Positions 5,858 through 34,111 of a stretch of DNA of 64,000 bases are shown in pieces (the stretch's first letter is position 1; each line of letters begins with the position of its first letter). The position numbers were made by a program, and so were the translations under genes. This DNA comes from Gilvimarinus chinensis DSM 19667 (GTDB taxonomy: Bacteria > Pseudomonadota > Gammaproteobacteria > Pseudomonadales > Cellvibrionaceae). The notes under the pieces were generated by a model that worked only from the letters and a program-made list of their open reading frames with translations, ran no database searches and was not told the origin of the DNA. Location of the stretch: contig NZ_KB898709.1 of NCBI RefSeq assembly GCF_000377745.1, forward strand, positions 5,001-69,000. Reading direction: 5' to 3'.

Positions 5858-6516
5858 ATGCCCTGCAAAACCAGCCAGAACCCGCTTCAACTTAAAGTAT
5901 CCAAGCCGTCGCAGTGGGAGCACAAAGCAGCACTTTGCAAATGCTCGCCAGACCATATGCTGGGCGCGCGCTCATTAGACTATCGTTTTAAATTGACCTT
6001 AGTGAAAACCTTCCCTTTTTACCCTGCCACTGAATCAGCTACTTGAAACAAATTCTTTTACTGCAGATAACTCGCCAAAGGCTTCATGCACCAAAGAATT
6101 CCTACCTCAGGGCTGGATCAAATCGAGCGATACCACCTGACATTACATTTACCGTTTAGGGCTGGCACCACGATGAAAACTCTGCAAGCCTTTAGCTGGT
6201 CAGCCAAAGCAGCTTGTAATCACTAACGACTGACAAGTACAAAGAGGCAACCTTTTCTGATTCATCGTAGAAAGTAGAAGCAAAAAATTAGCGATAGAGC
6301 TCTCACAGGAATACATGATGAGAATCACCCAAAGCTCGTCGAAGGGAGTTTATATATCCATGCAAACACGAGCGCTCTTGGTTAATCGAGAGCGCAAGAA
6401 GTCTTCACGACCACCGGTTAAAACCAGCAAAAGTGCCAGACTAAATGAAACGAACCAGTCCGGCACTTGCCATATAGAAGCAAGACTGACTAGGAAGGAA
6501 CATAAAGGAAAACGCC
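5858..6516. other. Non-coding stretch without a recognised gene
   Basis: About 660 bp with no reading frame that looks like a protein. It contains an inverted repeat GCGCTCT/AGAGCGC (6372-6378, 6389-6395) and the probable terminator of the next gene (6431-6468). I see no promoter, repeat family or RNA gene that I can name. Confidence 0.5.
6431..6468 (-). terminator. Probable terminator of the 9.8-6.5 kb operon
   Basis: Stem AAGTGCC-GACT/AGTC-GGCACTT (6431-6442, 6457-6468; one mismatch) about 50 bp past the stop of the oxidoreductase gene. The T run on the minus strand is interrupted (TTTTGCTGGTTTT), so strength is uncertain. Confidence 0.5.
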
Positions 6517-9906: not shown

Positions 9907-11511
9907 TTATTCGTCTCGTTGGTAATAAAAATGATGAAAATCAGCGGCCCGCGCGGTGCCGGTTAAATCCTGACACGCCATACCAATAAAGGTACCGGTA
10001 AAACTTGCGCCCTCGCCTTTACCCGCCTCGCAAGACAAATGCCGGTAATCTAACGTAACAGGCAACTCACACCATTCACTATCGTCGTATCGATAGCTGA
10101 AGGTCAGCTCGGCCCGTCTGATGACGGCTTTTAAGTGTATTTTTTTGTTTGACTCTAACGCAATCGGTGCCATCGGGAAACTCGCTTCCAGCCCCAATTT
10201 TGCATCGCAGGACATGATCGCCAACTGCTTGCCAAGCGCCTCATCGTGAGAGATGTATAAATAATGAAACTTCTGCGAATTGTAATAACACACCAGGCCA
10301 GCCATTTGCTGAAAGTTTTCTGGATTAAATTCCACCACAGCGCCCGCTTCGCAGCTTAAGCTGTCTTGGCGTAAGGCTACTAATGACGATTCAAAATGAC
10401 TTCCCAAAGATTCTCGCCCAAACAGCCGCAAACACCCCGCCCGCTCCGTCAAACTAAACAAACGTTCATGGCGCGGAGTTCGCAACCACTGGAACGCTTG
10501 AGGCAATTCGCTGTTTGTAAAATCAAAATCGGTCGCTTCCGCTGGCCACGGGTGTTCTGGCAGGTTCGGTGCCTGAACCGAGGTTTCCGGCAAGTTCGAC
10601 TCATTGTCGAGGCGCAGCCAGCCTTGATCATCCCAGCGCACTCGCTGTATCGCCGATTCTCGTCCTAATGGACTGAAGCGATCCTCAGGCGATAACGGCC
10701 GCGAACACAAGTGAACCGCATAGTGTTCACTCCCGTTAGGCGTATCCACTACCGCGCCATGGCCGCATCTTTGTATGGCAAGCTCGGGGTTATCTTTGGC
10801 GGTAATAAAGTGACCATTGGGGTCCAGCTCGTAAGGGCCGGTTAAAGAACGCGAACGGGCTAAGGTCATTGCATGATCGTAGCCTGTACCGCCTTCAGCC
10901 GTCAGTAGATAGTAATATCCATCGCGTTTGTATATATGGGGTCCTTCCGTAAACCCTAACGTCGAACCTGCAAAAATATTTTTCGCGGTGCCGATAAGCC
11001 GTTGCGATGACACATCGTACTCCTGCAGTAAAATTCCACCGAAAAATGTTCGCTCGGGCCGATGATCCCACACCATATTCACAAGCCATTTGCGGCCATC
11101 CTCATCGTGAAACAGCGAAGGGTCAAAACCACTGCTGTTGAGGTACACCGGATCGGTCCAGTCACCATCAATACGCTCGCAAGTAGTGAGGTAATTGTGA
11201 GTATCTTTAAAATTACCATCAAAGCGTTTTACATCAGTGTAAATAAGCCAAAAGCGTCCGTCTGCCCAACTGAGGCACGGAGCCCAAACACCGCAAGAAT
11301 CGGGTTCACCCGTCATATCCAATAACGCAGGGCGGTTAAGTGGACGACTCACCAAACGCCAGTTTTTCAAGTCGCGAGAATGGTGAATTTGCACACCGGG
11401 ATACCACTCGAAAGTAGACGTGGCAATATAAAAATCATCGCCAACTCGAACAATAGAAGGGTCAGGGTTAAAACCCGGTAAAATGGGGTTACGAATATTT
11501 TGATTCTTCAT
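9907..11511 (-). CDS. GH43 beta-xylosidase / alpha-L-arabinofuranosidase
   Basis: 534-residue glycoside hydrolase family 43 enzyme. The five-bladed beta-propeller domain spans about residues 8-300, with catalytic base Asp17 (NPDPSI), pKa-modulating Asp130 (GFDPSLFHDEDG) and acid Glu189 (TEGPHIYK), the same spacing as in characterised GH43 xylosidases. A C-terminal beta-sandwich (about 335-530) completes the usual two-domain form. No signal peptide is visible, so it probably acts in the cytoplasm on imported xylo-oligosaccharides. Its upstream region holds a LacI-type operator overlapping a promoter about 430 bp ahead of the start codon. The next three genes may be read from the same promoter. 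Confidence 0.92.
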   Translation of the reverse strand: MKNQNIRNPILPGFNPDPSIVRVGDDFYIATSTFEWYPGVQIHHSRDLKNWRLVSRPLNRPALLDMTGEPDSCGVWAPCLSWADGRFWLIYTDVKRFDGNFKDTHNYLTTCERIDGDWTDPVYLNSSGFDPSLFHDEDGRKWLVNMVWDHRPERTFFGGILLQEYDVSSQRLIGTAKNIFAGSTLGFTEGPHIYKRDGYYYLLTAEGGTGYDHAMTLARSRSLTGPYELDPNGHFITAKDNPELAIQRCGHGAVVDTPNGSEHYAVHLCSRPLSPEDRFSPLGRESAIQRVRWDDQGWLRLDNESNLPETSVQAPNLPEHPWPAEATDFDFTNSELPQAFQWLRTPRHERLFSLTERAGCLRLFGRESLGSHFESSLVALRQDSLSCEAGAVVEFNPENFQQMAGLVCYYNSQKFHYLYISHDEALGKQLAIMSCDAKLGLEASFPMAPIALESNKKIHLKAVIRRAELTFSYRYDDSEWCELPVTLDYRHLSCEAGKGEGASFTGTFIGMACQDLTGTARAADFHHFYYQRDE

Positions 11512-13721: not shown

Positions 13722-13757
13722 ATCCAACCTCTGTTATTATTTTGACTCAACAAAAAG

Positions 13758-17011: not shown

Positions 17012-18058
17012 TTACTCAGCAGCCGTTGAACCCCGCTGCACAAGAGCGTGGGCCAATACTTCCCGTTTTTGCAGCTTTATCCCCAATACGCTATCGGCCT
17101 TAACCACTTCAATTAACAAGTTAACAGACTCAGAGGACAGCTCTTCAATCGGCTGACGCACGGTTGTGAGCTGAGGAAAAATCGAGGTGGCAATGTTCGT
17201 ATCGTCAAAACCTGCAACGGCCAAGTCCTCAGGAACCCAAAGACTGCGACGGTGTGCCGTTGCAATGACCGCGCTGGCCATATCATCATTACTGGCAAAA
17301 ATTGCCGTCACAGGTTTACCGGCATCCAATATTTTCGCGCAGGCCTTCATCCCACTGTTAAAAGAGAAGTCCCCCTCTGCGACAAGCGCCTCATCAACGC
17401 TCAAGCCATGCTTGCTCATGGCATCCTGAAACCCTTTGTAACGGCTAACGGCGATTCCTTGGTGGGTATCCCCCTTTATGAATCCGATTGATGAATGCCC
17501 TTGCGCAATCAAATGCTCGGTCATTTCAAAGGTGGCCCGGTAGTCGTCGATAGAAACGTAGGAGGATCGCTCCAACTCTAAACCCGGCCCCACACGCACG
17601 TAACGCACACCGGCTTTATCCAGCGCATCTAACAAGGGGACATATTCACACAACGGCGGAGGGATGATCATGCCATCCAGCTTGTAACGTTTGGTTAGCT
17701 CGTCAACCACAGCCTCCACATCATTGTCCCCGTAAGAGCAAGGCTCAATGACGAGGTGATACCCCAGCTCATTGCAGCGCTTAAGAACGCCAATCAGATA
17801 CTGGCTGATGTAGCTACCGAGAGAGTTATCGTAAAAAAAACCGATCAGATAAGACTGCGCCCCAGATAAGCTGCGAGCTGACGCATCCAAGCGATAGTTT
17901 AACGCCTCTACCGCTGCCATTACCTTGTCATAAGTGGCGGCCGCCACCCGATCTTTATTAAGAACCCGTGAAACCGTCATTAAAGACACGCCAGCTCTTT
18001 CGGCGACATCTTTCATAGTGACCCGTGTCGATTTACCCGCGCGTTGTTTTTTACTCAT
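17012..18058 (-). CDS. LacI-family transcriptional repressor (XylR-like)
   Basis: 348-residue LacI/GalR regulator. The helix-turn-helix and hinge are at residues 14-60 (VTMKDVAERAGVSLMTVSRV, then LDASARSL), followed by a periplasmic-binding-protein-like sensor domain with IGFFYDN and FASNDDMASAVI. The ATG at 18058 is preferred over an in-frame TTG 18 bp upstream because typical family N-termini start shortly before the HTH. The gene lies upstream of the TonB receptor on the same strand and divergent from the GH120 gene. It is the only LacI protein in the window, so it is the best candidate to bind the three GTTAACGTTAAC operators and respond to a xylose-derived sugar; this is inference. Confidence 0.9.
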   Translation of the reverse strand: MSKKQRAGKSTRVTMKDVAERAGVSLMTVSRVLNKDRVAAATYDKVMAAVEALNYRLDASARSLSGAQSYLIGFFYDNSLGSYISQYLIGVLKRCNELGYHLVIEPCSYGDNDVEAVVDELTKRYKLDGMIIPPPLCEYVPLLDALDKAGVRYVRVGPGLELERSSYVSIDDYRATFEMTEHLIAQGHSSIGFIKGDTHQGIAVSRYKGFQDAMSKHGLSVDEALVAEGDFSFNSGMKACAKILDAGKPVTAIFASNDDMASAVIATAHRRSLWVPEDLAVAGFDDTNIATSIFPQLTTVRQPIEELSSESVNLLIEVVKADSVLGIKLQKREVLAHALVQRGSTAAE

Positions 18059-18543
18059 CAAATACTCAGTAAACAAGTTTCCAGCGAATCGGCAGCAGAC
18101 GACTTGCCGTTAACCGTGATCAGATTAGTCCGGTGTACCCCGGCGCCCTTTAGTACCACAAACAACGCCACATTACCATTTGCTATCGTGGCAAGGCAGC
18201 ACACGAGTACAGAATTAGTGTCGCGCCTTGCTACTCCAAGCCTTTTGAAATCCGTTTTTTCTAGAGCATCCATCCTGACGACTGAATTTAATGCGCTCGC
18301 GTCGAGTTCGACTTTCTCCCACAAGTTCAGATGAGCGTTTGCAAGCCCTCATCAATAGGCGATTTGCATAATCCTGACTCAGTTCAGCAAAACTCGAACA
18401 CCTTCGGCCATAAAAACGAACCGATAAAAGCGGCCTTCATCACTGCCGCGTGACACGCTGTCCAGCAACAAGTGGCATACTATGGCATTCATTTCACCTT
18501 CTGCAATTTCGCCCCATCCGATAACACTAAGGCAGGACCAATT
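18059..18543. other. Intergenic region between lacI and the GH120 gene
   Basis: About 485 bp between divergent genes with no convincing protein. One CGTTAACC half-operator-like sequence occurs near 18108-18115, but no complete GTTAACGTTAAC palindrome. Promoters for lacI and the GH120 gene should lie here; I could not assign them. Confidence 0.4.
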
Positions 18544-20352
18544 GTGACAAAACCACCCATTAGCTCTCGTATCTATCTATTACTCGCGTTACTCGCCTTC
18601 CTGGGGGGCTGTCAAACCAGCGTTAAGACAGAGTCCCGCGTTTATCACGTCTCGCCTGATGGTGAGATCGATGCCAGCGGTGCTGTTGACGACCCTCTCC
18701 TTTCTATTAATGCTGCCGCGCAAAAAGCGCAGCCAGGCGATACCGTCATAGTTCACACAGGAATCTATCGCGAATGGGTTAACCCGCCACGCGGCGGCAA
18801 CGCCGAGCAAGGCCCGATTCATTTTAAAGCGGCCGATAATGCGCAAGTTCGCATCCTCGGGTCCGAGCGCGTAACTGGCTGGCAGAAACAGGCAAACGGG
18901 TTTTACCGAGTTTCTCTCAGCCCCGAATTTTTCGGTGAGTTCAATCCCTTCGATCAATTAACGCGTCACCCTGAATACGTCAGCGCTGATGAAGAAGGTG
19001 ACGGCTGGGGCTGGCTAAAGTACGGCCGCTGGACTCACCTTGGTGACATTATCGCAGACGGCCAAGGACTGACCGAGCGCAAGACACTGGGAGAGCTAAC
19101 TGACCACCCCATGAGCTGGTACGTGAGTGAAGACCACGGCAACACCATTTTATGGGCCAACTTTGGTGACTTGGACCCGAAGCAGGTGTCGATAGAAGTT
19201 ACCAGTCGCCCTTTCGGTTTTTTCCCGAGTAAGCCGGGCCTAAGTCATATTACCGTTGAGGGGTTTTCCGTTGAAAATATCGCCACTCATTGGGCACCGC
19301 CTACGGTTTTCCAGCCCGGGGCCATCGGCCCTAATGGCGGCAACCACTGGGTGATCAAAAATAATACTGTGCTTTACAGCAAAGGGGTGTGCATATCTAT
19401 TGGCAACCCTAACGGCGCTGCAGACAAAGATGGCAGCGGTTATCATCAAGTCATTGATAATGTATTACTTCGGTGTGGCCAGGGCGGCATTGCCGGTGAA
19501 GCCTGGAATAAACATTCGCTGATAGCGGGTAATCATATCGAAGACATAAACTACCGCGAAGAGTTCGGGGGCTGGGAGACCGCCGGAATAAAACATCACA
19601 ACACATCGAATCTGGTGATCAAAAACAACCTGATCCGCAATGTACATACATTGGACCCAGAACGCGGAGCAGCTCACGGCATCTGGAACGACTTTAAAAA
19701 CAAAGACTGGCGTATCGAAAGTAACGTAATTATCGGTGCAGAGGCCTCATCGATTCTGTTTGAAGCCAACTGGGACGGATATCCTAACGTTTTCGCTAAC
19801 AACGTCATCGTCGGGGGACAGGTTTCGGCCTATTCTTCACGCGGTGACGTCATGCTTCACAATCTATTTTTGGATGTGAAACACACGTGGGGCAATCAAG
19901 ACTGGCAGGGGCGCCCCACACTAGCCGACAGCTACTGGCTGAACAACCTGTTTATTGGCAATGGATTGGATCCGGAAATTGAAGCCACCAATTTTCATTA
20001 CTCTAACAACGCCTACTTGAGTGGCGCTGATGCGTTACCACAAGAAAAACACGCGATGACGTTACCCGGTAAGGCTGAGTGGTCAGTTCAGGAAAATGCG
20101 ACAGACCTGAGCCTACAACTCACGCTGCCGCCGGGCACAGAGACTCTCACGGCAACACCAATCAACACGCAAATGATTGATCTGGCGTTGACCATCGACC
20201 CTACCGTATCCGCAGGGTTCTCAGGAGACAGCCGCCAAACTAAGCAGCTTAAGCCTGGCCCTTTTGTTGATTTGACAGCAGGAACCCATCTTTACCCGCT
20301 ATTGCCGCTCAGCGACCGATATTTACGAGCGAAAGCATTTATAGGGGACTAA
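18544..20352 (+). CDS. GH120 beta-xylosidase, surface lipoprotein
   Basis: 602-residue right-handed parallel beta-helix enzyme closely resembling GH120 xylosidases (Thermoanaerobacterium saccharolyticum XylC type): DTVIVHTGIYREWVNP, FFGEFNPF, and ITVEGFSV followed by ATHWAPPT and QPGAIGPN. The likely nucleophile is Asp383 in GIWNDF and the acid/base Glu407 in LFEANWDG, near XylC Asp382 and Glu405. A GTG start at 18544 is chosen: AGGA lies 6 nt upstream and it yields a compact lipoprotein signal peptide with lipobox LGGC (Cys23). An upstream ATG at 18472 would bury the signal. It should be anchored to a membrane and release xylose from xylo-oligosaccharides. It is divergent from lacI and convergent with the cytochrome gene. 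Confidence 0.9.
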   Translation: MTKPPISSRIYLLLALLAFLGGCQTSVKTESRVYHVSPDGEIDASGAVDDPLLSINAAAQKAQPGDTVIVHTGIYREWVNPPRGGNAEQGPIHFKAADNAQVRILGSERVTGWQKQANGFYRVSLSPEFFGEFNPFDQLTRHPEYVSADEEGDGWGWLKYGRWTHLGDIIADGQGLTERKTLGELTDHPMSWYVSEDHGNTILWANFGDLDPKQVSIEVTSRPFGFFPSKPGLSHITVEGFSVENIATHWAPPTVFQPGAIGPNGGNHWVIKNNTVLYSKGVCISIGNPNGAADKDGSGYHQVIDNVLLRCGQGGIAGEAWNKHSLIAGNHIEDINYREEFGGWETAGIKHHNTSNLVIKNNLIRNVHTLDPERGAAHGIWNDFKNKDWRIESNVIIGAEASSILFEANWDGYPNVFANNVIVGGQVSAYSSRGDVMLHNLFLDVKHTWGNQDWQGRPTLADSYWLNNLFIGNGLDPEIEATNFHYSNNAYLSGADALPQEKHAMTLPGKAEWSVQENATDLSLQLTLPPGTETLTATPINTQMIDLALTIDPTVSAGFSGDSRQTKQLKPGPFVDLTAGTHLYPLLPLSDRYLRAKAFIGD

Positions 20353-20420: not shown

Positions 20421-21821
20421 TTATAGGGCGCGTTTAGTCAATTTGATCAAGGATGTCGACACAGGCAAAAACACTCGATCGTATATATCCTCAAGATCCA
20501 GAGGATAAAATACGCGGTTCACTTGATAGCGTTGATAACCTGTAAGATAAAATAGATGTACCATCTTAAAGTCGACCACATCAGCTATCGTGCTCACCGT
20601 CGTAGGGCAATCAAGAACACCTGCCTCGGACTTGCGCTCATCCAACACTTGGCTCACATTAGGATCATGATTGCGCAGGTCATTGAGTATTTGCAACATG
20701 AGAAGATCGTAGAGATCGCCGCTGCCTAGACTCCAGTCGGTTACCGGAGGTTCATGACTGTGCAAGGTTGCAAGCGAGAAGGCTTCGCGCGGGTCCAACC
20801 CCAGCCCCTCTAACAAAGCATCTAAACTAAACGCACTGGCGCCCAAGTTATTAGCGAAAGTGGTGGCCCCCCTTTTCTCTGCTGGAGAGAGGTATGCATT
20901 ACCTTTTTTCAAATAGTACGCCAGTATCAGCCCGTATTTCGCTACTTCATATTTAGGGTGACGCTGCAACCGAGTAAATGCCCCTCGGGCCGTCGCACTG
21001 CCCATCGCAATATTGGAAAGCAGAAGCTCTGGGCCAAAATCGTGATGCGCAATCTTCCGCTTTCCTCCGCGTTTTAAAACCTCATCGCGCCAGACCAGAA
21101 AAGTGAATCGGTCAGAAGCCCCCTTGCCCGCCATAACGGCATTCATAACCCGCGCGTGACGATCATCAAGTGCCTCACCCTGCTGGCCCTCGGCAATATT
21201 GTCTCCAAAAACACCCGGCCAATCTAAATTAGTACCCCACACCGGCCTGGCATTTTTATGCCCATGGCACTCTTGGCAGCTTTTGGGGTTTCGGGTCAGA
21301 ACCGGCTCGTCTGGGGTAAAATCCAGCACTGAAAATTCCCAGTCGCCCGTTGTCGTATGCAACTGAGCCATGTCCAGTTTATGGTAGGTGGGATCATCCG
21401 GCTTGGTACCTATATTCATCATTAACAACCCATCAGAGCCGAAAAGAATAATTCTGGGGTGATTTAAGTTTGATTGGCCCGTCGCGCGAGTATGCTCGAC
21501 TAAGGAAAAATTGGTTTGGTAGTGCACCGGAAGCCTGGGCAACAATTCATCAATCGATTGAATATCGTGTTCATTAATGTAGCGCTCAATACCGGATATC
21601 GTCATATCAGTAACAGCTCCATTATCCGGCGTTTGAGTTAAAGGCACTATGGTATCAAACGCACTTTTTGGACAGAGCCTAAAATGACCGGTTACGCCTC
21701 CAGAATGAAAGAACCTCTGATAAGCATCCTCTTGTGTAATCGCACTGGCAGGCTGATGGAACACACAAAAATAAAAAACCGTAAAAAACAAAAAACCATT
21801 ATCTTTTAATTTATTTTGCAA
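20421..21821 (-). CDS. Secreted c-type cytochrome of unknown function
   Basis: 466-residue exported protein with one heme-c attachment motif, CQECH (Cys182, Cys185, His186), in PKSCQECHGHKNARPVWG. I do not recognise a named family. The TTG start at 21821 is chosen: GAGGAGG lies 9 nt upstream and it gives a clean signal peptide ending FHQPASA. It overlaps the end of the upstream gene by 11 bp, so the two are translationally linked. The lone heme motif, the periplasmic location and the neighbouring di-heme oxidoreductase fusion suggest an electron-transfer role for this block. An upstream in-frame start at 21866 would overlap 56 bp and spoil the signal. Confidence 0.7.
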   Translation of the reverse strand: MQNKLKDNGFLFFTVFYFCVFHQPASAITQEDAYQRFFHSGGVTGHFRLCPKSAFDTIVPLTQTPDNGAVTDMTISGIERYINEHDIQSIDELLPRLPVHYQTNFSLVEHTRATGQSNLNHPRIILFGSDGLLMMNIGTKPDDPTYHKLDMAQLHTTTGDWEFSVLDFTPDEPVLTRNPKSCQECHGHKNARPVWGTNLDWPGVFGDNIAEGQQGEALDDRHARVMNAVMAGKGASDRFTFLVWRDEVLKRGGKRKIAHHDFGPELLLSNIAMGSATARGAFTRLQRHPKYEVAKYGLILAYYLKKGNAYLSPAEKRGATTFANNLGASAFSLDALLEGLGLDPREAFSLATLHSHEPPVTDWSLGSGDLYDLLMLQILNDLRNHDPNVSQVLDERKSEAGVLDCPTTVSTIADVVDFKMVHLFYLTGYQRYQVNRVFYPLDLEDIYDRVFLPVSTSLIKLTKRAL

Positions 21822-22425
21822 CCTGACTGCCCTCCTCGGCTGCAACACTTTCTGCCAAATGACCAACCAGATTCACCGGAAGAAACAGGTATTCTCCCGT
21901 CACTTCATCGACCGAGCAAATATAGTAAAAGACCTTAGTCTGGCTGCCATGAACATCGATCAGCGCGACATTAGTTTGGCCATCGACATAGTATCCAGCA
22001 GCCGAGCACCCTTGAAAAGATTCTAACAACTGCCATTTATTGGGATAGTAGATGGGTCCGTCTGCAATAATTCTCTGCCATTGGGACTTCTCTTGTAGAT
22101 AGACCTCTGAGCGAAAGTTTCCGTACTGATCCTGCCAAATTTTTTTACGTTTACTCTCCACAAACTCCTCTGCAGATATTGAAGACGAAATACTCTCTGG
22201 CTTTTCTTCTCTTTCACCGGGCGCCGAATTTTTTTGAACGTTATCAGCCGAGCTGACACTTAGCCCTGCCAGTTCAGTTAGCGAGTTTGAAATTGAGGAT
22301 TCAAAGGATTTAGACGGACCTTTCGACTTAGGTAGCTCTATCTGCATCAAAGTATTAAGCACTGGCCACGACAGCCCTAACACTATTATCATGGCAACTA
22401 CAGCCATATAACTTTTAAGTTCCAT
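21811..22425 (-). CDS. Membrane-anchored protein of unknown function
   Basis: 204-residue protein with one N-terminal membrane segment (about residues 7-27), a Ser-rich, charged linker (about 35-90) and a C-terminal soluble domain (about 95-200) with QWQRIIADGPIYYP and NVALIDVHGSQTKVFYYICS. I do not recognise the family. It overlaps the downstream cytochrome gene by 11 bp, so the pair probably forms a functional unit with this protein tethered to the inner membrane facing the periplasm. The start is the ATG at 22425; no alternative looks better. Confidence 0.6.
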   Translation of the reverse strand: MELKSYMAVVAMIIVLGLSWPVLNTLMQIELPKSKGPSKSFESSISNSLTELAGLSVSSADNVQKNSAPGEREEKPESISSSISAEEFVESKRKKIWQDQYGNFRSEVYLQEKSQWQRIIADGPIYYPNKWQLLESFQGCSAAGYYVDGQTNVALIDVHGSQTKVFYYICSVDEVTGEYLFLPVNLVGHLAESVAAEEGSQVAK

Positions 22426-24227: not shown

Positions 24228-27200
24228 TTAAAGCGTTTTCACAAATTCCTGAATCGCCGTTTTCTCAGAATCGCTGAGGGCATTGTAGGCATCGGTAACC
24301 GACTGAGCATCACCTCCGTGACGTCTGATAGCGTCGGCAACACTGTCTGAGGCACCATCGTGCATATACAGCATCTCGTGCCCGTTGCGCTCTAACAAGT
24401 GAATATTCTGACCAATGCCCCACAGCGGCGCTGTACGGAAATCGCCCTCGCCCAAATCCCACGTTTTCATGTCGGTATAAGGGCGAATAGTCAGGTTGCG
24501 TAAATGCGTAGGTGCATCGGAGCGGGTTTTTTGCACCGGAGTATGGCAGCTGGCACAACCAATTTCTGTGAACGCCACTTCGCCTTGACTCACCGCTGGG
24601 TCACTGTAAGTGCCAGGGTCACGCGCAGGCACAGTTAACACCTCAACATAGGTGGTTAACAGTTCCAGTAAGCGGGGTGGCATTTCAACCGGGTCTACAC
24701 CATGGTCGACAACCAGCGCCGATTTAACCTGATCGGCCACGGTAGGCTCTGCCCCCTCCCAGTTAAAACCGGCTTCACGACCTTCAATCGCTTCCAGCAG
24801 CTTCACCCCGTACACCGGTGGCGGCAAGCGCATGCCCTTACCCGGTACGTTAACAGGCTCTGTACCACGACCATCACGGAAGTGACAATTACCACAGGTA
24901 TCCTGACCAATTTGTACATCCGGATCGTTAAACTCACTGGAGCCTAGCTTGTTAGGATCTACACCGTGGAACAAGTGGTGCCCCAGAATAAAATCATCCA
25001 CCATGTCTTCTTTGTGCAAGGTAACCATAGGCTGGGTGAAAATCGCGTTGTGCTCTAAATCGATGTAAGCACCCGAGTCAGAGAACACTTGACTGGTACC
25101 CGCTTTACCGGCTGGGTTTAAGCGCGGATCACCGTACTTACCACACCAACCACAACCCACTACATAGTGGGAGAAGTCGTTGTAGGTTTGTGCACCTGTG
25201 TTACCGGCAATAGCGGTTACCTCAAAACTGATCACCTGACCGTAGCTGTAAGCCGAGTCAAAACCGGGGTTTTGAGTCAGGGCAAAAAACTGCTGGCCGT
25301 TTGGCCCACCGGCGGTGTTGCGCATAGATTCATTACGCAAGATGCTGCCGTTGATACCAAAACCTAAGTGCACATCACCGGGGCTGTCTTCGGCCCAGAT
25401 GGTGTACCGGTCAAGGTTACGCAGACGATCATTGTTGTGGTGCGCATCCAGTACGGCTGCGGTGGTACCGTCTTGGGTGATCGGGTGACGGAAACGCATC
25501 CAGTTGGAGGAGCCATCCACAAACGGCTCGTAGTTATGGGGGTTAACCCGCGCACCTTCGGTGGTAAACAAACCTGTCCAAATCCACTGCGTAGCCGGGT
25601 TATTGTTTAGTGCGTTCGGGTGCAAGTAGCGGAAAAAGTAATTGTAATCACCACTACAGGGGATAGTCGCTGTACCACCGCTTACCGCTACTTTCTTAAA
25701 GGTTAAGTCGCCATCGTCCGAGCAGTGCATCTCAAGCCCAGAATCACCGGCGCCCTTCACAATATAAGGCCCCCAGCGCCATGTTAGCTGGTTACCGTCC
25801 ACGTCAAAGGCAAAACCGTGGCTGGTAGGTGCATGCCCATTTTCAGGTGTGGCCAGCGCATACACAGGATTTGCCCGCGGTGGAGGTCCCACTTCACCGT
25901 CGGTGAGTGAATTGCTCGTCCAGTCGAGGTGGGCAAAGGGTGAGTCTGGATCGATATTATCACCCGGATCACCGTTGCCGCCGTCGTTACCGCCATCATT
26001 GCCGCCGTCGGCGCCATTGGTAGTGTAGTCATAACGAGGGAATTGATCAGCGCCCATGCCAGGCACCTTTAACTGTGCGGTAAAGCTACCGCCAGGCAAA
26101 TTTGCGAAGGTGTGCTCGTAACGATCGCCGTTTTGGCTCGCGGTGTAACAGTCGGCTTCCAGATCACGACACAAATAGTAAGTGCCGGAGTCGGGCCAAC
26201 CTGACTGCGTGGCAAACCACAGGGTGCTGCCGCTAACGCCAAACGGCTCATTGCCGTTGCCGCCGTCATCTCCGGGATTGCCATCATCAGCGGCCGCCAC
26301 TTGTACACTCACCTCATCGCGCACGCCGGTCAGGGTGTGATCGGCTTCGGCCAGTTCAACCGCGAGGGTATGGGTGCCCACAGCCAAGCCATCGATAACT
26401 ACGTCGGCGCTGCTGTATAGCGGCCCCTGATCTTCACCATTAACAAAGTAATGAACATGGCCGTCGTTTTGCGCCAGCGGCCAGTTGTTTACCGCAAAGC
26501 CCAGCGTAACGCTCTCACCCTCGGTAAAGCTCGCACCATTGGCGGGTGAGCTGATACCCACCGTGCCTTGCGGGGCTGGTTGATCGCTCACCTGAACTTG
26601 CACGGTATCAGACGCCACAGCGCCGTCGTTATCCGTGGCTTCGACACGAAATTGCCAAGTACCCACTTGATCGGCGGTAATGCTAAAACCGTAGGGTGCA
26701 CTGTTTTTTGTGCTCACCAAGGTCTCAGACATACCCGGGGCGGTCGCGTATAAGGCAACGCTGACAACACTGCCGTCGCTGTCTGAAGCATTTGCCGTAA
26801 GGTTAATTGTGTCTCCTAGGGTCGCAGCGGCCGGTTGGCTTAAGGTTACCGAGGGTGCCTGATTCTCGACAGGGTCTGTACTGCCACCTTGAAGAGTAAA
26901 GTCCAGTAAATCAACATTCATAGCCGCGTCGCCATTTTGATAGCGCACCTCGACACTGGCACCTTGAGGCACCTGAACGTCTACATCAACGGTGTTGTAG
27001 CTACCGACCCAAGAGCCGGTGCTAGCAAAGGGCACAGCCGTATCGCTGCCGTTTACTCGCAACGTGATACGCCCTGATACTTCGGAGGCGTATGTGATAC
27101 TGACAGTATCGGCCTGCGGAGCGCTATCAATGCGAAAGCCTGCGCCATTGCTGCTGATGTAAGCCACACCCTCGCCACCGCTGGCCGCTGTATCCGGGTA

Positions 27201-29249
27201 AAGCTGCGCGCCGCCAAACACGGTGGCGGTTTCGGCCTCCAGTGTCAGGCTGGTGGGGTCGCCACTGCTGCTGTTATCTTGCACCACGGTTTTACTGGTA
27301 GTGGTCTCTGCTGTAGCGCCTTGATCGTCCACGGCCACGGCCCGGAACTGATAGTTGCCTGCCGTATTAACAGCAACGTCGAAGGTGTGAATATTGCCAG
27401 AAACCTGATCTACCCATGTTTCGCTACCGCCGGGGGCAGTCATGAACAAGGTTACAGATTCTACGCTGCCATCACTGTCGTTAGCGTTCACTGCCACTGA
27501 AATCACACCACCCTCGGTAACAACTCCTGAATTTGTGCTGGCCGAAACCGTTGGTGCAAAATTGGGCTCATCTACTGGGGCACTGCTATCTTTAGTAAAA
27601 GTCGCCTGATCCTGCACGGTATACTGACCGCTTTCGTTATCCTGAACTTTAAATTCAATGGTATAGCTTTGACCCAAGGAGCCATTAAAGTTACGGGTAA
27701 ACAAGCCGTCGGTACGGGTCGCAGACAAACAGTAAGCGTCTAAACACAGATAAGCGAAATTGCCTTCCCAGTCCGGATTGTCCTGATGAAATACTTGCAA
27801 GGTGGAGTCGTCGATATAGCGAATTCCAAACTCGGCATTCGGTGCTGGATCGGGATCCCCACCGCCGTCAGCCACGACATTTTTATAGATTATTGTTTCG
27901 TCAGTGCGGCCATCGTTATCGGTGGCCACTGCGCGCAAAACGTAACTACCTGACACTGACGTATTGACGGTGAAGGTATCCGCGTCACCTTGCGAGGTTC
28001 CGACCAGCACTTCGCTGCTGTTGGGCGCGGTAACATACAAACTGATGCTGGTTACCGAACCATCGGCGTCGCTGGCACTGACGTCAACCGTAAAACTCTC
28101 ACCGACCAGTACTTCTGAATTTTGAGCCAGTAAGTTGACGCTAGGGCTTTGCGGATTAACGGAGCCCTGATCACCAAAATTAAGTTCACTGAACAGGTTA
28201 GCCCCAGCGCGAATAAAATCGGTGCCACCAGTAGCGTTTTGCCAACGGTTTAAAATAGTGCTGTTGGCCTGAACCCGGCTATCGCCCCAGTAACCTTCAG
28301 GCCCGTAAATACCATCATTAGGATTCCAGCGCGGCTGCGCATCCCAGTTAGCATTGATATAGGTAATCGCACGCAGAACATCTTTACTGCCGCTTGAGTA
28401 CTCCGCAATAAAATCAAAGTACGGCTGATACCACTCATTCCACACTTGATCGGCGGTTTTGTTGACCGGATTACTGCCAAAAGCCGCGTCGGTTGAATAG
28501 GTTAACGCGCCGGTTTTATAACGCTGCGGAGTGGATTCATTAATAAACAGTGGCTTATTGTGAGCAACGGCAAAGTCTGCCACTTTGCGCACTTCAGCCC
28601 AGTTACAATCCTGTGGCGCAAAATACGAGATACCCACCCAGTCGACTACATCATCGCCGGGGTACCACTCATCGGGGTTAATAGGCACTGGACAGTAGGT
28701 GGCGGTTTGCCAAACCAAGGCGATACGGTCGTCATAGCCTAACTGCTCAATACGATTATGCACATAAGCAAAAGTAGACTTTACCGCAGAGGGACTGTGG
28801 TTATTCCAAGGCCCATCAACTTCATAAGCCCACCGCAAGTACACGGGGCGGTTGTAGCCACCCAAAGTATTTAACAGCGTATCGATATTCGCGTTGTAAT
28901 TACCGGCTGCAACCTGATCAATCACGCCGTTCATAGAGACGCCCACCACCAGCGCCCGATCGGGATAAGTGGCGGCCAGTTCGGCCACATTGTTACGTCC
29001 TGCACCGGCATCAGCGTTATTAGTCAAACCGTCCAGGTTTGCAATCCCCACATAATTAGTGACACCTGCGGGCTGCGTGCTTACCGATGAAACATACTCA
29101 CCAATGCTTTCGATATCCTGCCCTACTGATAGCATGACCCCATCATCTGGAACCAAGGTACCACTGACCGCGTATGCCTGTGAGGCTGCAAGTGTTGCAA
29201 CCCCCAGTGTAAGGCTATGGCGGCGAAACTCTTTCCAATAGCTACTCAT
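24228..29249 (-). CDS. GH26-like hydrolase fused to CBM, Ig and di-heme oxidoreductase
   Basis: A 1673-residue secreted multidomain protein. Signal peptide 1-27; GH26-like (clan A) catalytic domain about 35-345 with probable acid/base Glu143 (LRWAYEVDGPWNN), nucleophile Glu238 (PLFINESTP) and YPGDDVVDWVGISYF. Three Ig-like/PKD-like repeats follow around 368-460, 565-657 and 797-888 (SDSDGSV motifs), two related Cys-containing modules at about 470-552 and 1000-1075, a CBM6/35-like domain at 668-788, and a Gly/Asp/Asn linker near 1080-1100. The C-terminal part (about 1400-1673) is a di-heme DHOR (DUF1111)/MauG-like domain with CGNCH (1452-1456), CASCH (1565-1569) and MHDGASDSVADAIRRHGG. Residues 1100-1400 are unassigned. 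The hydrolase-heme fusion is unusual; see findings. Confidence 0.85.
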   Translation of the reverse strand: MSSYWKEFRRHSLTLGVATLAASQAYAVSGTLVPDDGVMLSVGQDIESIGEYVSSVSTQPAGVTNYVGIANLDGLTNNADAGAGRNNVAELAATYPDRALVVGVSMNGVIDQVAAGNYNANIDTLLNTLGGYNRPVYLRWAYEVDGPWNNHSPSAVKSTFAYVHNRIEQLGYDDRIALVWQTATYCPVPINPDEWYPGDDVVDWVGISYFAPQDCNWAEVRKVADFAVAHNKPLFINESTPQRYKTGALTYSTDAAFGSNPVNKTADQVWNEWYQPYFDFIAEYSSGSKDVLRAITYINANWDAQPRWNPNDGIYGPEGYWGDSRVQANSTILNRWQNATGGTDFIRAGANLFSELNFGDQGSVNPQSPSVNLLAQNSEVLVGESFTVDVSASDADGSVTSISLYVTAPNSSEVLVGTSQGDADTFTVNTSVSGSYVLRAVATDNDGRTDETIIYKNVVADGGGDPDPAPNAEFGIRYIDDSTLQVFHQDNPDWEGNFAYLCLDAYCLSATRTDGLFTRNFNGSLGQSYTIEFKVQDNESGQYTVQDQATFTKDSSAPVDEPNFAPTVSASTNSGVVTEGGVISVAVNANDSDGSVESVTLFMTAPGGSETWVDQVSGNIHTFDVAVNTAGNYQFRAVAVDDQGATAETTTSKTVVQDNSSSGDPTSLTLEAETATVFGGAQLYPDTAASGGEGVAYISSNGAGFRIDSAPQADTVSITYASEVSGRITLRVNGSDTAVPFASTGSWVGSYNTVDVDVQVPQGASVEVRYQNGDAAMNVDLLDFTLQGGSTDPVENQAPSVTLSQPAAATLGDTINLTANASDSDGSVVSVALYATAPGMSETLVSTKNSAPYGFSITADQVGTWQFRVEATDNDGAVASDTVQVQVSDQPAPQGTVGISSPANGASFTEGESVTLGFAVNNWPLAQNDGHVHYFVNGEDQGPLYSSADVVIDGLAVGTHTLAVELAEADHTLTGVRDEVSVQVAAADDGNPGDDGGNGNEPFGVSGSTLWFATQSGWPDSGTYYLCRDLEADCYTASQNGDRYEHTFANLPGGSFTAQLKVPGMGADQFPRYDYTTNGADGGNDGGNDGGNGDPGDNIDPDSPFAHLDWTSNSLTDGEVGPPPRANPVYALATPENGHAPTSHGFAFDVDGNQLTWRWGPYIVKGAGDSGLEMHCSDDGDLTFKKVAVSGGTATIPCSGDYNYFFRYLHPNALNNNPATQWIWTGLFTTEGARVNPHNYEPFVDGSSNWMRFRHPITQDGTTAAVLDAHHNNDRLRNLDRYTIWAEDSPGDVHLGFGINGSILRNESMRNTAGGPNGQQFFALTQNPGFDSAYSYGQVISFEVTAIAGNTGAQTYNDFSHYVVGCGWCGKYGDPRLNPAGKAGTSQVFSDSGAYIDLEHNAIFTQPMVTLHKEDMVDDFILGHHLFHGVDPNKLGSSEFNDPDVQIGQDTCGNCHFRDGRGTEPVNVPGKGMRLPPPVYGVKLLEAIEGREAGFNWEGAEPTVADQVKSALVVDHGVDPVEMPPRLLELLTTYVEVLTVPARDPGTYSDPAVSQGEVAFTEIGCASCHTPVQKTRSDAPTHLRNLTIRPYTDMKTWDLGEGDFRTAPLWGIGQNIHLLERNGHEMLYMHDGASDSVADAIRRHGGDAQSVTDAYNALSDSEKTAIQEFVKTL

Positions 29250-29608: not shown

Positions 29609-30778
29609 TTAGGCGCCATTTTCCGTGCTGGACTGAAGTGAAGAGTTCGCGTCTCGATATTGACTGGGTGTCATACCCACATGTTTACGAAACAACGTAA
29701 AAAACGATGAGCGTGAACGAAAACCGACAGATTCGTAAATTTCTTGCACCGACGCTTGGGACCACTCATCACTGGTCAAACGCTGCTTCACCTCTTCCAG
29801 TCGATACCCATTGATAAACTCAAAAAAATTTTTCCCAAACTCGCGGTTAATAACTTGAGAAAGCTGACGCGGAGACAGAGACAACTCTTCCGCCAAGCGC
29901 TCGATGTTTAAGCGGGGGCGGCAATACAGCTTATCTTCTTCCATACGCATGGTTATATAGCCCTGCACAGTTTGATCCTCCGCCGAAGAAGGCTCATCAC
30001 TAGCGGTCATTTCCTTCTCGGGCGGCGCGGGAATCTGACGGGTGGCAGGCGCGTAAAAGAGCCCCGCAAAAACAATAAAATAGATTAATCCCAATTCCAG
30101 CACGCCGGGTAAATGAACCACTGTTTCCATCAACGGCCAGGGAGCCCAAGGGTAGAAAAACGGCGGCAGAATTTCTAACGCCCAGACCAACAGAAACCCC
30201 CACACCATAAGCTTGAGCCACCCGTATTCCATCAGCTCGACCGTGCAGAAACGATCTTTTAAACGCTCAGAGTACCGTTTGATATGAATAAGCGCAGCGA
30301 CGGCAAAACCAACAGAAACAGCAAACCCCAGCACACACACCAGAACAAGTTCTCGCCAAAACATTACCTCAAGCATCGAATGCCAACCCAAAGGCTCAGA
30401 AACTACAACGACCAGCCCCGGTGCAAAAGGCCACAAACACGACCAACGCCACGGGTAAGACTCTGAGGTTAGCGCGCGCGTATAGTGGAACAACAACGGC
30501 CCATGCACACTGTAAATCAACGCCCAAAGCGCAAAGCCACTATCGCCCCAGATAGGATGCAGGACTCTAAACAGTGCGGGGTTATAAGTTAAAAGAAAAA
30601 CCAGCTGCCCTACCGCGAGCGAGATCAGAAAGGCGGACAATAATCGCTGACTGAGCGGCCGCGGAGGCCGAAGCAGCATCAATAGCCCAAACATCAGACA
30701 CTGAAACATCAACATGATTAAGATCAGATCATAGGCATTGAACTGAGATTGGTTGAGCCATTCGTAAAATTGGTGCAT
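29609..30778 (-). CDS. Membrane-bound AraC-family regulator
   Basis: 389-residue protein with about seven N-terminal membrane helices (residues 1-240) and a C-terminal AraC-type DNA-binding domain (about 285-380): LNIERLAEELSLSPRQLSQV and SVQEIYESVGFRSRSSFFTL are the two helix-turn-helix regions, ending in MTPSQYRD. The ATG at 30778 has AAGG 7 nt upstream; an in-frame start 69 bp further upstream lacks conservation. Membrane-anchored AraC regulators of this layout are frequent in marine polysaccharide degraders; their signal is usually unknown. It is divergent from xylB, with a LacI-type operator between them, and lies just upstream of the GH26-heme gene, which it may control. Confidence 0.88.
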   Translation of the reverse strand: MHQFYEWLNQSQFNAYDLILIMLMFQCLMFGLLMLLRPPRPLSQRLLSAFLISLAVGQLVFLLTYNPALFRVLHPIWGDSGFALWALIYSVHGPLLFHYTRALTSESYPWRWSCLWPFAPGLVVVVSEPLGWHSMLEVMFWRELVLVCVLGFAVSVGFAVAALIHIKRYSERLKDRFCTVELMEYGWLKLMVWGFLLVWALEILPPFFYPWAPWPLMETVVHLPGVLELGLIYFIVFAGLFYAPATRQIPAPPEKEMTASDEPSSAEDQTVQGYITMRMEEDKLYCRPRLNIERLAEELSLSPRQLSQVINREFGKNFFEFINGYRLEEVKQRLTSDEWSQASVQEIYESVGFRSRSSFFTLFRKHVGMTPSQYRDANSSLQSSTENGA

Positions 30779-31212
30779 TACGGTACCTTGAAGTCGTTTA
30801 TTGCCCCGTATGTTTATCGTTATTGTTGAATTGCGTGCTCTGCCCAAGCTTCAACTTGCTCATCAATATGATATACGTTACAGTTAACGTTAACAACTGA
30901 TCGCTGTACAAGGTTAAAAACTCGGTCGGAGAGACCCCAACATCCCACGGTCCCTCTGAAACCAAAGCATTTCTTTTACCGCTTAACCCAGGCAGTTGTA
31001 GCAAAGAGGGTTCCGTCGAATAGACCATTAGCCTGGATCAGGCAGGATGAAGGGTTTGAGGCTGTTTCCACAAGACCTCCATCGAATTACGACGCATCTG
31101 GAATCGTCACATATTGTTTTACAGCGTTACGTATCGCCCGATTGTCTGCGGCTCCATCGCCGCCCCGACCAATACTGGCCCCTAATAACAAACGAATACA
31201 ACGAGACGCACT
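30779..31212. other. araC-xylB intergenic region
   Basis: About 430 bp between divergent genes with no convincing gene. It contains the operator at 30883-30894 and a TATGAT -10-like hexamer just before it on the plus strand (about 30867-30873). A -35 could not be assigned confidently. Confidence 0.5.
30883..30894. promoter_or_regulatory. LacI-type operator between araC and xylB
   Basis: Third perfect GTTAACGTTAAC palindrome, 319 bp before xylB and 105 bp before the AraC gene start. A TATGAT-like -10 lies about 10 bp upstream on the plus strand, so a bound repressor would sit near the start point of a xylB transcript. Confidence 0.7.
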
Positions 31213-32712
31213 ATGTACTTTCTTGGTTTAGATATCGGCAGCTCCTCGGTTAAATTGTCCGTCATTGATGGCGACAGCGGCGAGCGGGTGGCCAACGCTA
31301 CCTACCCTCCGCAAGAAATGACCATCAATGCCCCTCAATCCGGCTGGGCCGAGCAAGCACCGGAAAACTGGTGGAGCGCCGTTAAAAAAGGTTGCGAGCA
31401 GCTTTGGCAAATAAAGCCGGAAGCCAGAGATAACATCGGCGCCATCGGGATTTCCTACCAAATGCACGGCTTGGTTGCCGTGGACAAAGACGGCAAAGTG
31501 CTGCGTCCGTCCATCATCTGGTGCGACAGCCGCGCGGTGGCCACCGGCGAACAGGCCTTTTCCGAACTGGGCAAGGACTGGTGCATGGCGCACTTGCTGA
31601 ACGCCCCCGGCAACTTCACCGCGGCCAAGCTGCGCTGGGTCCAGGAGAACGAGCCCGAGCTCTACAGCCGTATCGACAAGATTCTGCTTCCCGGTGATTA
31701 TATTGCCTATAAGCTGACTGGCGAATGCACCACCACCGCCTCCGGTTTATCCGAAGGGGTGTTTTGGGATTTTTCGGAAAATCAGGTAGCGGATTCATTA
31801 CTAGAACATTGGCACATTGACCCCGCTTTACTGGCCAGACAAGTCCCTAACCTAGGCATACAGGGTGAGGTGAATGAAATCGCCGCCCGCGAGCTCGGCA
31901 TCAATGCCGGTGCCAAGCTGGCCTTCCGCGCAGGCGATCAAGTTGCCAACGCAATAAGTCTTAATGTACTGGAGCCCGGTGACGTCGCCACTACCGCTGG
32001 CACCTCTGGGGTCGTTTACGCCGTGACCGACAAAAACATCGCCGACCCAGATCAGCGCATCAATACTTTTTTACACGTGAACAAAGGCAATGCCGAGGCA
32101 CACCGTGGCCTACTCGCGTGTATTAACGGTGCAGGGCGAATGAACAGCTGGCTGCGCGGTGTGTTGAGCACAGGTGGCGATATTTCTTACCCCGCATTAA
32201 ATGAACTGAGTGAGTCCGTAGCGCCGGGCAGTGATGGATTAAACGTATACCCGTTTGGTAACGGCGCCGAGCGCATCATGCGTAACAAATTATTGTCTGC
32301 ACAATTGGACGGTCTGGACTTGAACCGCCACGGGGTTAACCATATTGCCCGCGCCACGCAAGAAGGTGTGGCCTATGCAATGAATCTGGGCTTTGACTTA
32401 ATCAAAGGTTTGGGCGCCGAAACCCGGATCGTTCGCGCCGGCCACAGCAATATGTTTTTGAGCCCGATTTTCACTAGCGCGTTCGTCAACCTGATCGGCG
32501 CACCACTGGAGTTGTACCAGACCGACAGCGCCGACGGCGTCGCCCGCGCCGCAGCCTGGGGCTGCGATTTCTACACCAGCCGTGACGACGTGTTCCGCAC
32601 CCTAAGGTGCAAAGCCATACTCGAGCCGCAAACCCAACTACAAAACCAATATCAAGATCTGTACGCGCAATGGCGCACGGCGGTCGAGCAGCGTTTAACA
32701 CAAAACCACTAA
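31213..32712 (+). CDS. xylB: Xylulokinase
   Basis: 499-residue FGGY-family kinase that phosphorylates D-xylulose to xylulose-5-phosphate, feeding the pentose phosphate pathway. The N-terminal ATPase motif is GLDIGSSSVKLSVID; SYQMHGLVAVD and IIWCDSRA are xylulokinase signatures; the catalytic Asp is in FRAGDQVANAISL near residue 240; the second-domain signature spans RIVRAGHSNMFLSPIF. The length is normal. It is followed by xylA 67 bp downstream on the same strand, so it is probably cotranscribed. The upstream GTTAACGTTAAC operator links it to the TonB/GH43 regulon. Confidence 0.95.
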   Translation: MYFLGLDIGSSSVKLSVIDGDSGERVANATYPPQEMTINAPQSGWAEQAPENWWSAVKKGCEQLWQIKPEARDNIGAIGISYQMHGLVAVDKDGKVLRPSIIWCDSRAVATGEQAFSELGKDWCMAHLLNAPGNFTAAKLRWVQENEPELYSRIDKILLPGDYIAYKLTGECTTTASGLSEGVFWDFSENQVADSLLEHWHIDPALLARQVPNLGIQGEVNEIAARELGINAGAKLAFRAGDQVANAISLNVLEPGDVATTAGTSGVVYAVTDKNIADPDQRINTFLHVNKGNAEAHRGLLACINGAGRMNSWLRGVLSTGGDISYPALNELSESVAPGSDGLNVYPFGNGAERIMRNKLLSAQLDGLDLNRHGVNHIARATQEGVAYAMNLGFDLIKGLGAETRIVRAGHSNMFLSPIFTSAFVNLIGAPLELYQTDSADGVARAAAWGCDFYTSRDDVFRTLRCKAILEPQTQLQNQYQDLYAQWRTAVEQRLTQNH

Positions 32713-32779: not shown

Positions 32780-34111
32780 ATGAGCATTACATTAGGTGAT
32801 AAAGAGTATTTCCCCGGAGTCGAAAAAATCGAGTACGAAGGTGCCGAGTCCGATAATCCACTCGCCTTTAAATGGTACGACGAAAACAAAGTCGTCGCCG
32901 GAAAAACCATGAAGGAACACTTCAAGTTTGCAGTCTCCTACTGGCACACCTTCTGCGGCGCCGGTCACGATCCTTTCGGCCCTGGGCCCTTCATCTTCCC
33001 ATGGAACGAAGGCAAAGATGCCGACACCCGCGCACGCATGAAGCTGGACGCAGCTTTTGAATTTTTCACAAAATTAGGCACTCCCTACTACTGCTTCCAC
33101 GATGTAGATGTGATTGAGGAAGGCAACTCCCGCAGCGAGACCAGCGCACGTTTAGCCAAATGGGTAGGCTGGGCCAAAGAGAAACAAAAAGAGTCTGGCG
33201 TTAGATTGTTGTGGGGTACCTCGAACCTGTTCAGCAACCCACGCTTTATGAACGGTGCCTCCACCAACCCAGACTTTAACGTGGTGGCCTACGCTGGAGC
33301 ACAACTTAAAGACGCTATGGATGCCACCATCGAACTCGGCGGTGAAAACTACGTATTCTGGGGCGGCAGAGAAGGTTACATGAGCCTTCTGAATACCGAT
33401 GTAAAGCGCGAACAGGAGCACCTAGCTCGTTTTCTGACGATCGCCCGTGATTACGGACGCGCCAATGGTTTTACAGGTAACTTTCTGATTGAGCCCAAAC
33501 CAATGGAGCCTACCAAACACCAGTACGATTTCGACAGCGAAACCGTTATAGGCTTCTTACGTCATCACGGCCTCGATAAAGACTTCAAGCTGAACATTGA
33601 AACCAACCACGCCACGCTGGCGCAACACACCATGGACCACGAAATGCAAGTCGCCGCCAACGCCGGCATGCTGGGCTCCATCGATGCAAACCGCGGAGAT
33701 TATCAAAACTCGTGGGACACAGATCAGTTCCCCTACAACATTAACGAAACCGTTGAGATGATGCTGGTGCTGCTGCGCCACGGCGGCTTCCAGGGCGGCG
33801 GTGTAAACTTCGATGCGAAACGTCGTCGCAACTCCACCGACATGAACGACACCTTCCACGGACACATCGGCGGCATGGACGTGTTCGCCCGCTCACTGCT
33901 GATTGCAGATGATCTGATCCAAAAGTCTCCGCTGGAAAAAATGCGGGCCGAGCGTTACGCCTCGTTCGATAAAGGTAAAGGCGCCGATTTTGAAAAGGGC
34001 AAACTAACATTAGAGCAACTGGCGGACATCGGTAACAGTATGGGAGAGCCTAATCAGACCAGTGGCCAACAGGAGCTGTACGAAAACATGATTAATCGTT
34101 ATGTTCGCTGA
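32780..34111 (+). CDS. xylA: Xylose isomerase
   Basis: 443-residue TIM-barrel enzyme isomerising D-xylose to D-xylulose, class II length. Characteristic segments are [31 protein letters not shown] with the catalytic His and metal-site acidic residues, [45 protein letters not shown] and [19 protein letters not shown] with the remaining metal ligands. It is the second gene of a xylB-xylA unit and is followed by a strong hairpin. It works with XylB and the locus transporters; it is cytoplasmic. Confidence 0.97.

Follow-up and report, generated by a model that had tools for sequence, protein, structure and literature searches.

A secreted beta-1,3-xylanase of Gilvimarinus chinensis joined to a compact di-heme redox module that recurs in four bacterial phyla

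We analyzed a stretch of 64,000 nucleotides from the marine, alga-associated bacterium Gilvimarinus chinensis DSM 19667 (Gammaproteobacteria, Cellvibrionaceae; contig NZ_KB898709.1, positions 5,001 to 69,000), hereafter the window, in which one gene encodes a secreted beta-1,3-xylanase of glycoside hydrolase (GH) family 26 joined to a compact di-heme redox module of the type of bacterial cytochrome c peroxidases (bCCPs) and MauG. The original prediction had recognized a GH26-like hydrolase fused to a di-heme oxidoreductase (DHOR) and knew of no described glycoside hydrolase of this kind; on the latter point it is overtaken, as the ortholog Xyn65 was published in 2022 (PMC9638140). The GH26-DHOR fusion is already in the literature, and its redox module is part of a wider, uncharacterised system; what we add is the recurrence of the module in four phyla, the residues of its heme pocket, a second fusion that joins GH16 to a DHOR, and a co-occurring mono-heme protein. 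We propose, with a probability of roughly 0.4 for the proposal as a whole, that the module is a polymer-anchored peroxidase or oxidase arm that aids the attack on beta-1,3-glycans.

The gene (24228-29249, minus strand) is indeed one open reading frame (ORF) of 1673 residues with an ATG start and zero internal stops, and residues 1-28 (MSSYWKEFRRHSLTLGVATLAASQAYA) resemble, as judged by eye, a signal peptide. A frameshift, chimera or assembly error was considered and rejected; given that the separate assemblies of G. xylanilyticus HB14 (~92% nucleotide identity over the gene) and G. gilvus share the architecture, and that Xyn65 was detected in the secretome and expressed at ~180 kDa, the fusion is not an artefact. 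Residues 29-360 match the beta-1,3-xylanase XYL4 (PDB 2ddx) at E 2.3e-130 (phmmer against PDB), with a GH26 Pfam score of 18.4 bits, under the cut-off of 20.2; the catalytic residues lie where they had been placed, E143 in YEVDGPW and E238 in NESTPQ, and both are present in 11/11 further GH26-DHOR proteins checked. While the GH26-like assignment is borne out, the choice left between mannanase and xylanase is corrected to beta-1,3-xylanase by the 2ddx match, CBM31 (a family of carbohydrate-binding modules, CBMs), the surrounding xylose locus and the assayed ortholog; the 2ddx match and CBM31 reject the mannanase and 1,4-xylanase readings. The original prediction had missed both CBM31 modules as well as a conserved beta-domain (residues 1115-1400) that accompanies the hemes. 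The first CBM31 scores 134 bits against PF11606 (cut-off 25); the second (1003-1077) was missed by the Pfam scan and seen only with a home-made profile built from related loci. Elsewhere in the protein, Big_7 matches support the Ig-like repeats, in 4 stretches rather than three, and the presumed CBM6/35-like domain survives as CBM6-like only, since its score against PF03422 (24 bits) misses the cut-off of 28.9. The DHOR-like C-terminus is upheld by PF06537 at 65.9 bits (cut-off 22) over residues 1516-1673, a match limited to the C-terminal part of the profile (325-499 of 499) and not a full-length family domain, and the two CxxCH motifs start at 1452 and 1565 as predicted. In the whole genome, the fusion protein carries the one GH26 1,3-xylanase match at E <= 1e-10 and the one CBM31 match at E <= 0.001, the second CBM31 being below the reach of that search.

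The ratio of nonsynonymous to synonymous substitution (dN/dS), computed vs. G. gilvus and HB14 respectively, is 0.04 and 0.03 for the beta-domain, 0.08 and 0.07 for the DHOR, 0.02 and 0.04 for GH26, and 0.15 and 0.14 for the Ig repeats and linkers; for the second CBM31 it is 0.85 vs. G. gilvus, where dS is just 0.02, and 0.14 vs. HB14. Along the gene (24231-29165 vs. the G. gilvus locus L036), dS swings from 0.02 at the second CBM31 to ~2 at the first, which suggests a recombination mosaic between species.

Xyn65 of G. xylanilyticus HB14 (WP_253968372.1; GH26-CBM31-CBM6-Big-DHOR, 176.6 kDa) was assayed as a strict endo-1,3-xylanase and is the most abundant secreted 1,3-xylanase of that strain, accounting for 82.3% of the peptides matched to 1,3-xylanases in its secretome (PMC9638140). 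The recombinant protein, ~180 kDa, was made in E. coli BL21(DE3) without its signal peptide, and its authors, who state that DHOR had not previously been found in glycoside hydrolases, offered two untested ideas for this domain, a new oxidoreductase activity or a role in binding or stability (PMC9638140). Xyn65 and the window protein have the same architecture, with 96% protein identity in the DHOR module and 98% in GH26 at the HB14 locus (L055), in genomes of 3,930,865 and 4,065,334 bases, respectively; the published architecture has one CBM31 (PMC9638140), whereas we find two. HB14 further carries, directly downstream of Xyn65, an extra CBM31-CBM6-DHOR gene (1216 residues; L035, 3857-8079) that is missing in the window, where only ~225 bp (24002/24228) stand in its place, a clean presence/absence difference. 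XYL4 and TxyA have the catalytic domain and CBM31 in common with the fusion protein, and their architectures as given in Table 3 of that paper are without Ig array, beta-domain or DHOR (PMC9638140). In a full-text search of open-licence papers, no paper besides PMC9638140 among the matches listed linked a DHOR to polysaccharide enzymes.

By its AlphaFold2 model (residues 1115-1673; pLDDT 91.1, pTM 0.91), the module is bCCP/MauG-like in fold: Foldseek returned 14 matches (E 3e-7 to 8.5e-4; TM by target 0.41-0.54), including the gamma subunit of hydrazine synthase (E 3e-7), with which the module has two c-hemes and the fold in common, and several bCCPs. For the beta-domain, whose conserved residues include W1250, R1252, H1255 and D1260, Foldseek gave no confident PDB match, only Ig/fn3-like ones with E above 1e-3. 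Both CxxCH motifs, Trp1497, Gln1507, Asp1515, His1630 and His1644 are each invariant in 37/37 modules. With bCCPs and MauG the module thus has in common two c-hemes, the fold, the inter-heme Trp and the distal Gln; from them it differs by Ala for Pro, Asp for Glu and a predicted His for Met, and by the addition of the 286-residue beta-domain and of glycan-binding partners. His1644 aligns with the Met that follows the HDG motif of 1iqc and 3o5c, which we take to be the ligand of the E-heme in those proteins, so heme 2 is predicted to be bis-His. The spacing of 10 between Trp1497 and Gln1507 is the same as that of Trp98/Gln108 in NgBCCP (PMC10094543) and of Trp93/Gln103 in MauG (PMC6405878). No His is conserved across the 37 modules in the stretch from heme 1 to the Trp (Tyr stands at 1480 in 29/37), so a His loop of the kind used in reductive activation is not in evidence.

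As for wider kinship, the C-terminal part of the module is over the cut-off for DHOR PF06537 (DUF1111) and aligns by hhalign with the GH16-linked form at a probability of 100%; judged by sequence, the heme halves of the module and of the GH16-type DHORs are clearly homologous. The inter-heme stretch is shortened in the module, with a CxxCH spacing of 112-116 in module ORFs vs. 221-227 in the GH16 type. Between the beta-domain and the N-terminal domain found in GH16-type DHOR proteins, hhalign gave a non-significant probability of 0.1-0.2, and a short motif looks alike.

The redox module, taken as residues 1115-1673 with the beta-domain and the compact di-heme domain, was found in 10/144 genomes of the family at 20 places (query C-terminal 574 residues, E <= 1e-100), five of them in a single Marinibactrum genome (G058). 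In a class sample of 369 genomes drawn evenly, which gives a background rate and not a distribution map, it occurred in the window genome only (E <= 1e-60), and a plasmid search with the same 574 residues gave 77 records, all <60% identical and each spanning less than 80% of the query. Two peptide patterns, by which relatives without both would be missed, were run against a single genome per species, 84,980 in all, and recovered 50 loci (L055-L104) across Pseudomonadota, Bacteroidota (Aquimarina, Flammeovirga, Xanthovirga and a metagenome-assembled genome (MAG) of Cytophagales), Acidobacteriota (Sulfidibacter, Holophagae, Acanthopleuribacter) and Planctomycetota (Phycisphaerae MAGs and others). 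These loci hold 63 DHOR-matching ORFs, some of them partial and two belonging to neighbouring DHORs of the ordinary kind; CBM31 matches lie in 43 of the 63 and GH26 in 7. Counting flanks of up to ~7 kb, a GH26 1,3-xylanase-like domain is present in 22/50 loci, 7 fused and 15 separate; hydrolases of other families were looked for in those module proteins scanned with Pfam. On a quick maximum-likelihood tree of 40 modules, with one contig-edge row unscored, the GH26-fused state changed at least 6 times. Among the family genomes, CBM31 accompanies the module in 10/10 vs. 4/134 without it, a test that is partly circular because CBM31 often lies within the module protein itself; GH26 as a gene of its own occurs in 9/10 vs. 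7/134, a comparison that escapes this circularity, as does that for the mono-heme protein given below, both being confounded by kinship and lifestyle. Four planctomycete module proteins (L084, L092, L079, L082), that of L084 being 1880 residues long (3050-8692, plus strand), have zero Pfam matches at E 0.001 in the part that precedes the hemes, and near those of L084 and L092 lies a further DHOR-like gene on the opposite strand with a heme spacing of 259. PF03640 'Lipoprotein_15' repeats, of a secreted type, precede the beta-domain in many, not all, scanned DHOR proteins (L035, L038, L040, L042, L046-L050, L068, L074, L077, L086, L100, L103, L106).

A second kind of fusion involves another hydrolase family. 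The window genome also encodes, on contig C1, a GH16-TSP3-CBM35/CBM6-CBM56-DHOR protein of 1715 residues (L004, 2194-7341, plus strand), and the 11 other retrieved frames of 1528-1860 residues with the same DHOR type, from 10 more genomes of the family, have GH16 domains 56-98% identical to its own; a Pfam scan covered 3 of these 11, with L106 matching the related PF03935 and not PF00722. CBM56 together with GH16 presumably points to beta-1,3-glucan. Relatives of the GH16-type DHOR without a GH16 match were found as well (L117, L119, L120, L123, L124), the last of them adjoining a GH16-like ORF, and DHOR proteins with F5/8C domains (L117, L118, L121) indicate that the DHOR is not confined to binders of beta-1,3-glycans.

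The mono-heme protein (481 residues, 20421-21866, minus strand), encoded near the fusion gene, has a single CQECH motif and zero matches in Pfam, NCBIfam and PDB; its AlphaFold2 model, built from 3 sequences, had a pLDDT of 53 and was not used. At E <= 1e-10, it occurs in 15/144 family genomes and in 0/368 other genomes of the class sample. Within the family it is present in 10/10 module genomes vs. 5/134 others (Fisher p 3.9e-12) and, at the level of genera, in 4/4 vs. 1/28 (p 1.4e-4). Beyond the family, it was found in 5/5 Aquimarina, in 4/4 Flammeovirga (34-36% identity), in one Gynuella MAG and in Aliagarivorans marinus; in Aquimarina litoralis the copy, 45% identical, lies in the module locus. 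In the match of G. xylanilyticus, a flagged stop lies upstream of an intact frame of 466 residues.

Our proposal of a polymer-anchored peroxidase or oxidase arm would work as follows: 1) CBM31 would hold the module on beta-1,3-xylan; 2) heme 1, with proximal His1456 and a pocket of Gln1507 and Asp1515, would be open and react with H2O2; 3) Trp1497 and heme 2 (His1569/His1644) may relay electrons or store the second oxidising equivalent; 4) at the surface of the polymer, the oxidising power would act on the beta-1,3-glycan itself or on some wall component associated with it, thereby aiding GH26; and 5) the 481-residue mono-heme protein would be the candidate electron partner. Direct oxidation of the sugar by the module is a plausible possibility. 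The 1,3-xylanases of Vibrio, Thermotoga and gut Bacteroides are on record (PMC9638140 Table 3, PMC12125979); these taxa are not among the 50 loci of the two-pattern scan, which fits an oxygen- or peroxide-linked role.

Several observations weigh against this proposal. Attachment of c-type heme requires the periplasm, and recombinant Xyn65, having been made without its signal peptide, was probably heme-free; that it still cut xylan implies that the hydrolase is independent of the hemes. A 2025 paper on the 1,3-xylan pathway of Vibrio sp. EA2, described as 'complete', contains no heme or cytochrome term (PMC12125979), implying that a redox arm is not required. The Gln, Pro and Glu of the distal pocket are conserved across bCCPs, MauG and BthA (PMC6405878); in 37/37 modules the Pro at Gln+4 is replaced by Ala1511 and the Glu at Trp+20 by Asp1515 at +18. 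That Ala and that Asp recur in 11/11 aligned DHORs of the GH16 and F5/8C types, so the pocket looks DHOR-type; in this set Tyr replaces the Trp in 4/11 and Phe replaces the Gln in 2/11. CBM31 was not detected by blastp in 20/63 module ORFs, and the open-licence full-text search turned up no paper that reports a redox activity of such a DHOR module. Lastly, of 26 module genomes reached via the named loci, 13 have the mono-heme protein (11/24 as a further count, those of L057 and L064 being already in the family set as G081 and G029). The 13 genomes in which the search did not find it are those of 3 Acidobacteriota, 3 Planctomycetota, 2 Steroidobacteraceae, Neiella, Xanthovirga, Aliagarivorans taiwanensis, a Spongiibacteraceae MAG and an Alteromonadaceae MAG.

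The same data bear on other roles for the module. It might be a wall-tethered peroxidase of bCCP type that removes H2O2 from an algal burst or from secreted oxidases, protecting enzyme and cell while leaving the polysaccharide untouched. The bCCP-like fold, the conserved Trp and Gln, a mono-heme protein that could donate electrons and an ortholog hydrolase that is active by itself would all suit such a scavenger; yet the association with CBM31 and with genes resembling 1,3-xylanases across four phyla, like the several paralogs per genome, has a specificity beyond what detoxification would call for, the Pro and Glu of the bCCP distal pocket are replaced, and a supply of electrons outside the cell would be hard to secure, making this role, on balance, rather unlikely. 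A lower probability still attaches to the module as an electron carrier for a lytic polysaccharide monooxygenase (LPMO) or another secreted oxidase, as proposed for Cbp2D and Cbp2E of Cellvibrio japonicus, likewise CBM proteins with a proposed redox role, which we set beside the module by description only. The original prediction had raised this link, and a secreted CBM-bearing protein with c-type hemes is compatible with it, as is the predicted transfer of electrons by Cbp2D/E to Lpmo10B (PMC12542752); those proteins act on cellulose rather than beta-1,3-glycans, and direct cleavage of cellulose has been proposed for them in 2025 (PMC12542752). AA10 LPMOs occur in 11/20 module genomes, with two genes in the window genome, neither on the contig of the window; none was found in the other 9/20 (other LPMO families were unsearched, and the second ten genomes are without a completeness value), so the module does not appear tied to AA10 LPMOs, a general role in supplying electrons to LPMOs loses support and an obligate LPMO partner is less credible. 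Moreover, a pure carrier would not need the invariant inter-heme Trp and distal Gln.

Oxidation in the manner of MauG, directed at a protein or a phenolic compound of the wall and not at sugar or at peroxide as such, would agree with the MauG-type Trp/Gln pair and with heme 1 having no His loop, but no candidate gene for a protein substrate was identified and the targeting is to glycans; we judge it highly unlikely. Least probable of all is a DHOR unit that has lost its redox function and serves binding or stability only, the second idea of the Xyn65 authors, because, even though the recombinant, probably heme-free enzyme could be purified and was active, both CxxCH motifs, Trp1497, Gln1507, Asp1515, His1630 and His1644 are each kept in 37/37 modules and the dN/dS of the DHOR is 0.07-0.08.

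From the genes around it (Table 1), we read the setting of the fusion gene as a beta-1,3-xylan utilisation locus. Adjoining its TonB-dependent receptor is a gene for a protein of the tryptophan-halogenase family (12249-13727, minus strand; 602 bits).

Table 1. Positions in the window of the fusion gene, its parts and the genes of the surrounding locus
Feature	Position	Strand	Basis
Whole gene, GH26/CBM31/Ig/CBM6-like/CBM31/beta-domain/di-heme DHOR, 1673 residues	24228..29249	-	ORF, Pfam, PDB match, orthologs
Signal peptide-like N-terminus, residues 1-28	29166..29249	-	by eye; HB14 protein in culture supernatant (PMC9638140)
GH26 beta-1,3-xylanase domain, residues 29-360; catalytic Glu143, Glu238	28170..29165	-	2ddx E 2e-130
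First CBM31, residues 468-557	27579..27848	-	PF11606 134 bits; PDB 2cov match; home-made CBM31 profile
CBM6-like domain, residues 669-786	26892..27245	-	24 bits, cut-off 28.9; blastp homologues in module proteins
Top-scoring Ig-like Big_7 repeat, residues 799-863 (4 stretches overall)	26661..26855	-	Pfam
Second, divergent CBM31, residues 1003-1077	26019..26243	-	36.9 bits, home-made CBM31 profile
Conserved N-terminal beta-domain of redox module, residues 1115-1400	25050..25907	-	two module alignments; AlphaFold2 model
Compact di-heme DHOR domain, residues 1401-1673	24231..25049	-	Pfam, Foldseek, alignment
Heme 1 CxxCH, residues 1452-1456	24882..24896	-	kept 37/37
Inter-heme Trp1497, distal Gln1507, Ala1511 (Pro in bCCP/MauG), Asp1515	24705..24761	-	each 37/37
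Heme 2 CxxCH, residues 1565-1569	24543..24557	-	kept 37/37
His1644, predicted sixth ligand of heme 2 (Met in bCCPs)	24318..24320	-	alignment, 37/37; inferred
Unannotated mono-heme (CQECH) protein, 481 residues, candidate redox partner	20421..21866	-	
GH120 insertion domain and beta-helix protein, GH120 beta-xylosidase-like	18472..20352	+	
GH43 beta-xylosidase-like	9907..11511	-	
Major facilitator superfamily (MFS) sugar transporter	7488..9089	-	
TonB-dependent receptor	13823..16810	-	
LacI-family regulator	17012..18076	-	
AraC-family regulator, immediately upstream of fusion gene	29609..30847	-	
Xylulokinase-like FGGY kinase	31213..32712	+	TIGR01312 295 bits, under cut-off 380
Xylose isomerase XylA	32780..34111	+	TIGR02630 654 bits, cut-off 533

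A bolder form of the peroxidase or oxidase proposal is that the beta-domain and the compact di-heme unit together are the first member of a new class of heme enzymes that oxidise polysaccharides, a functional counterpart of LPMOs for beta-1,3-glycans (xylan via CBM31/GH26, glucan via CBM56/GH16) with its own family of mono-heme partners. We regard this as rather unlikely; if true, it would to our knowledge provide the first substrate-defined function for DHOR/DUF1111 proteins. Beta-1,3-xylan, a sugar polymer of algal walls, has been described as an overlooked reservoir of carbon in the ocean, and the finding of a di-heme module alongside CBM31 and 1,3-xylanases across four phyla suggests that its degradation may have an oxidative arm. 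DHOR/DUF1111 proteins, in turn, gain a concrete substrate hypothesis, together with a short list of residues and partners.

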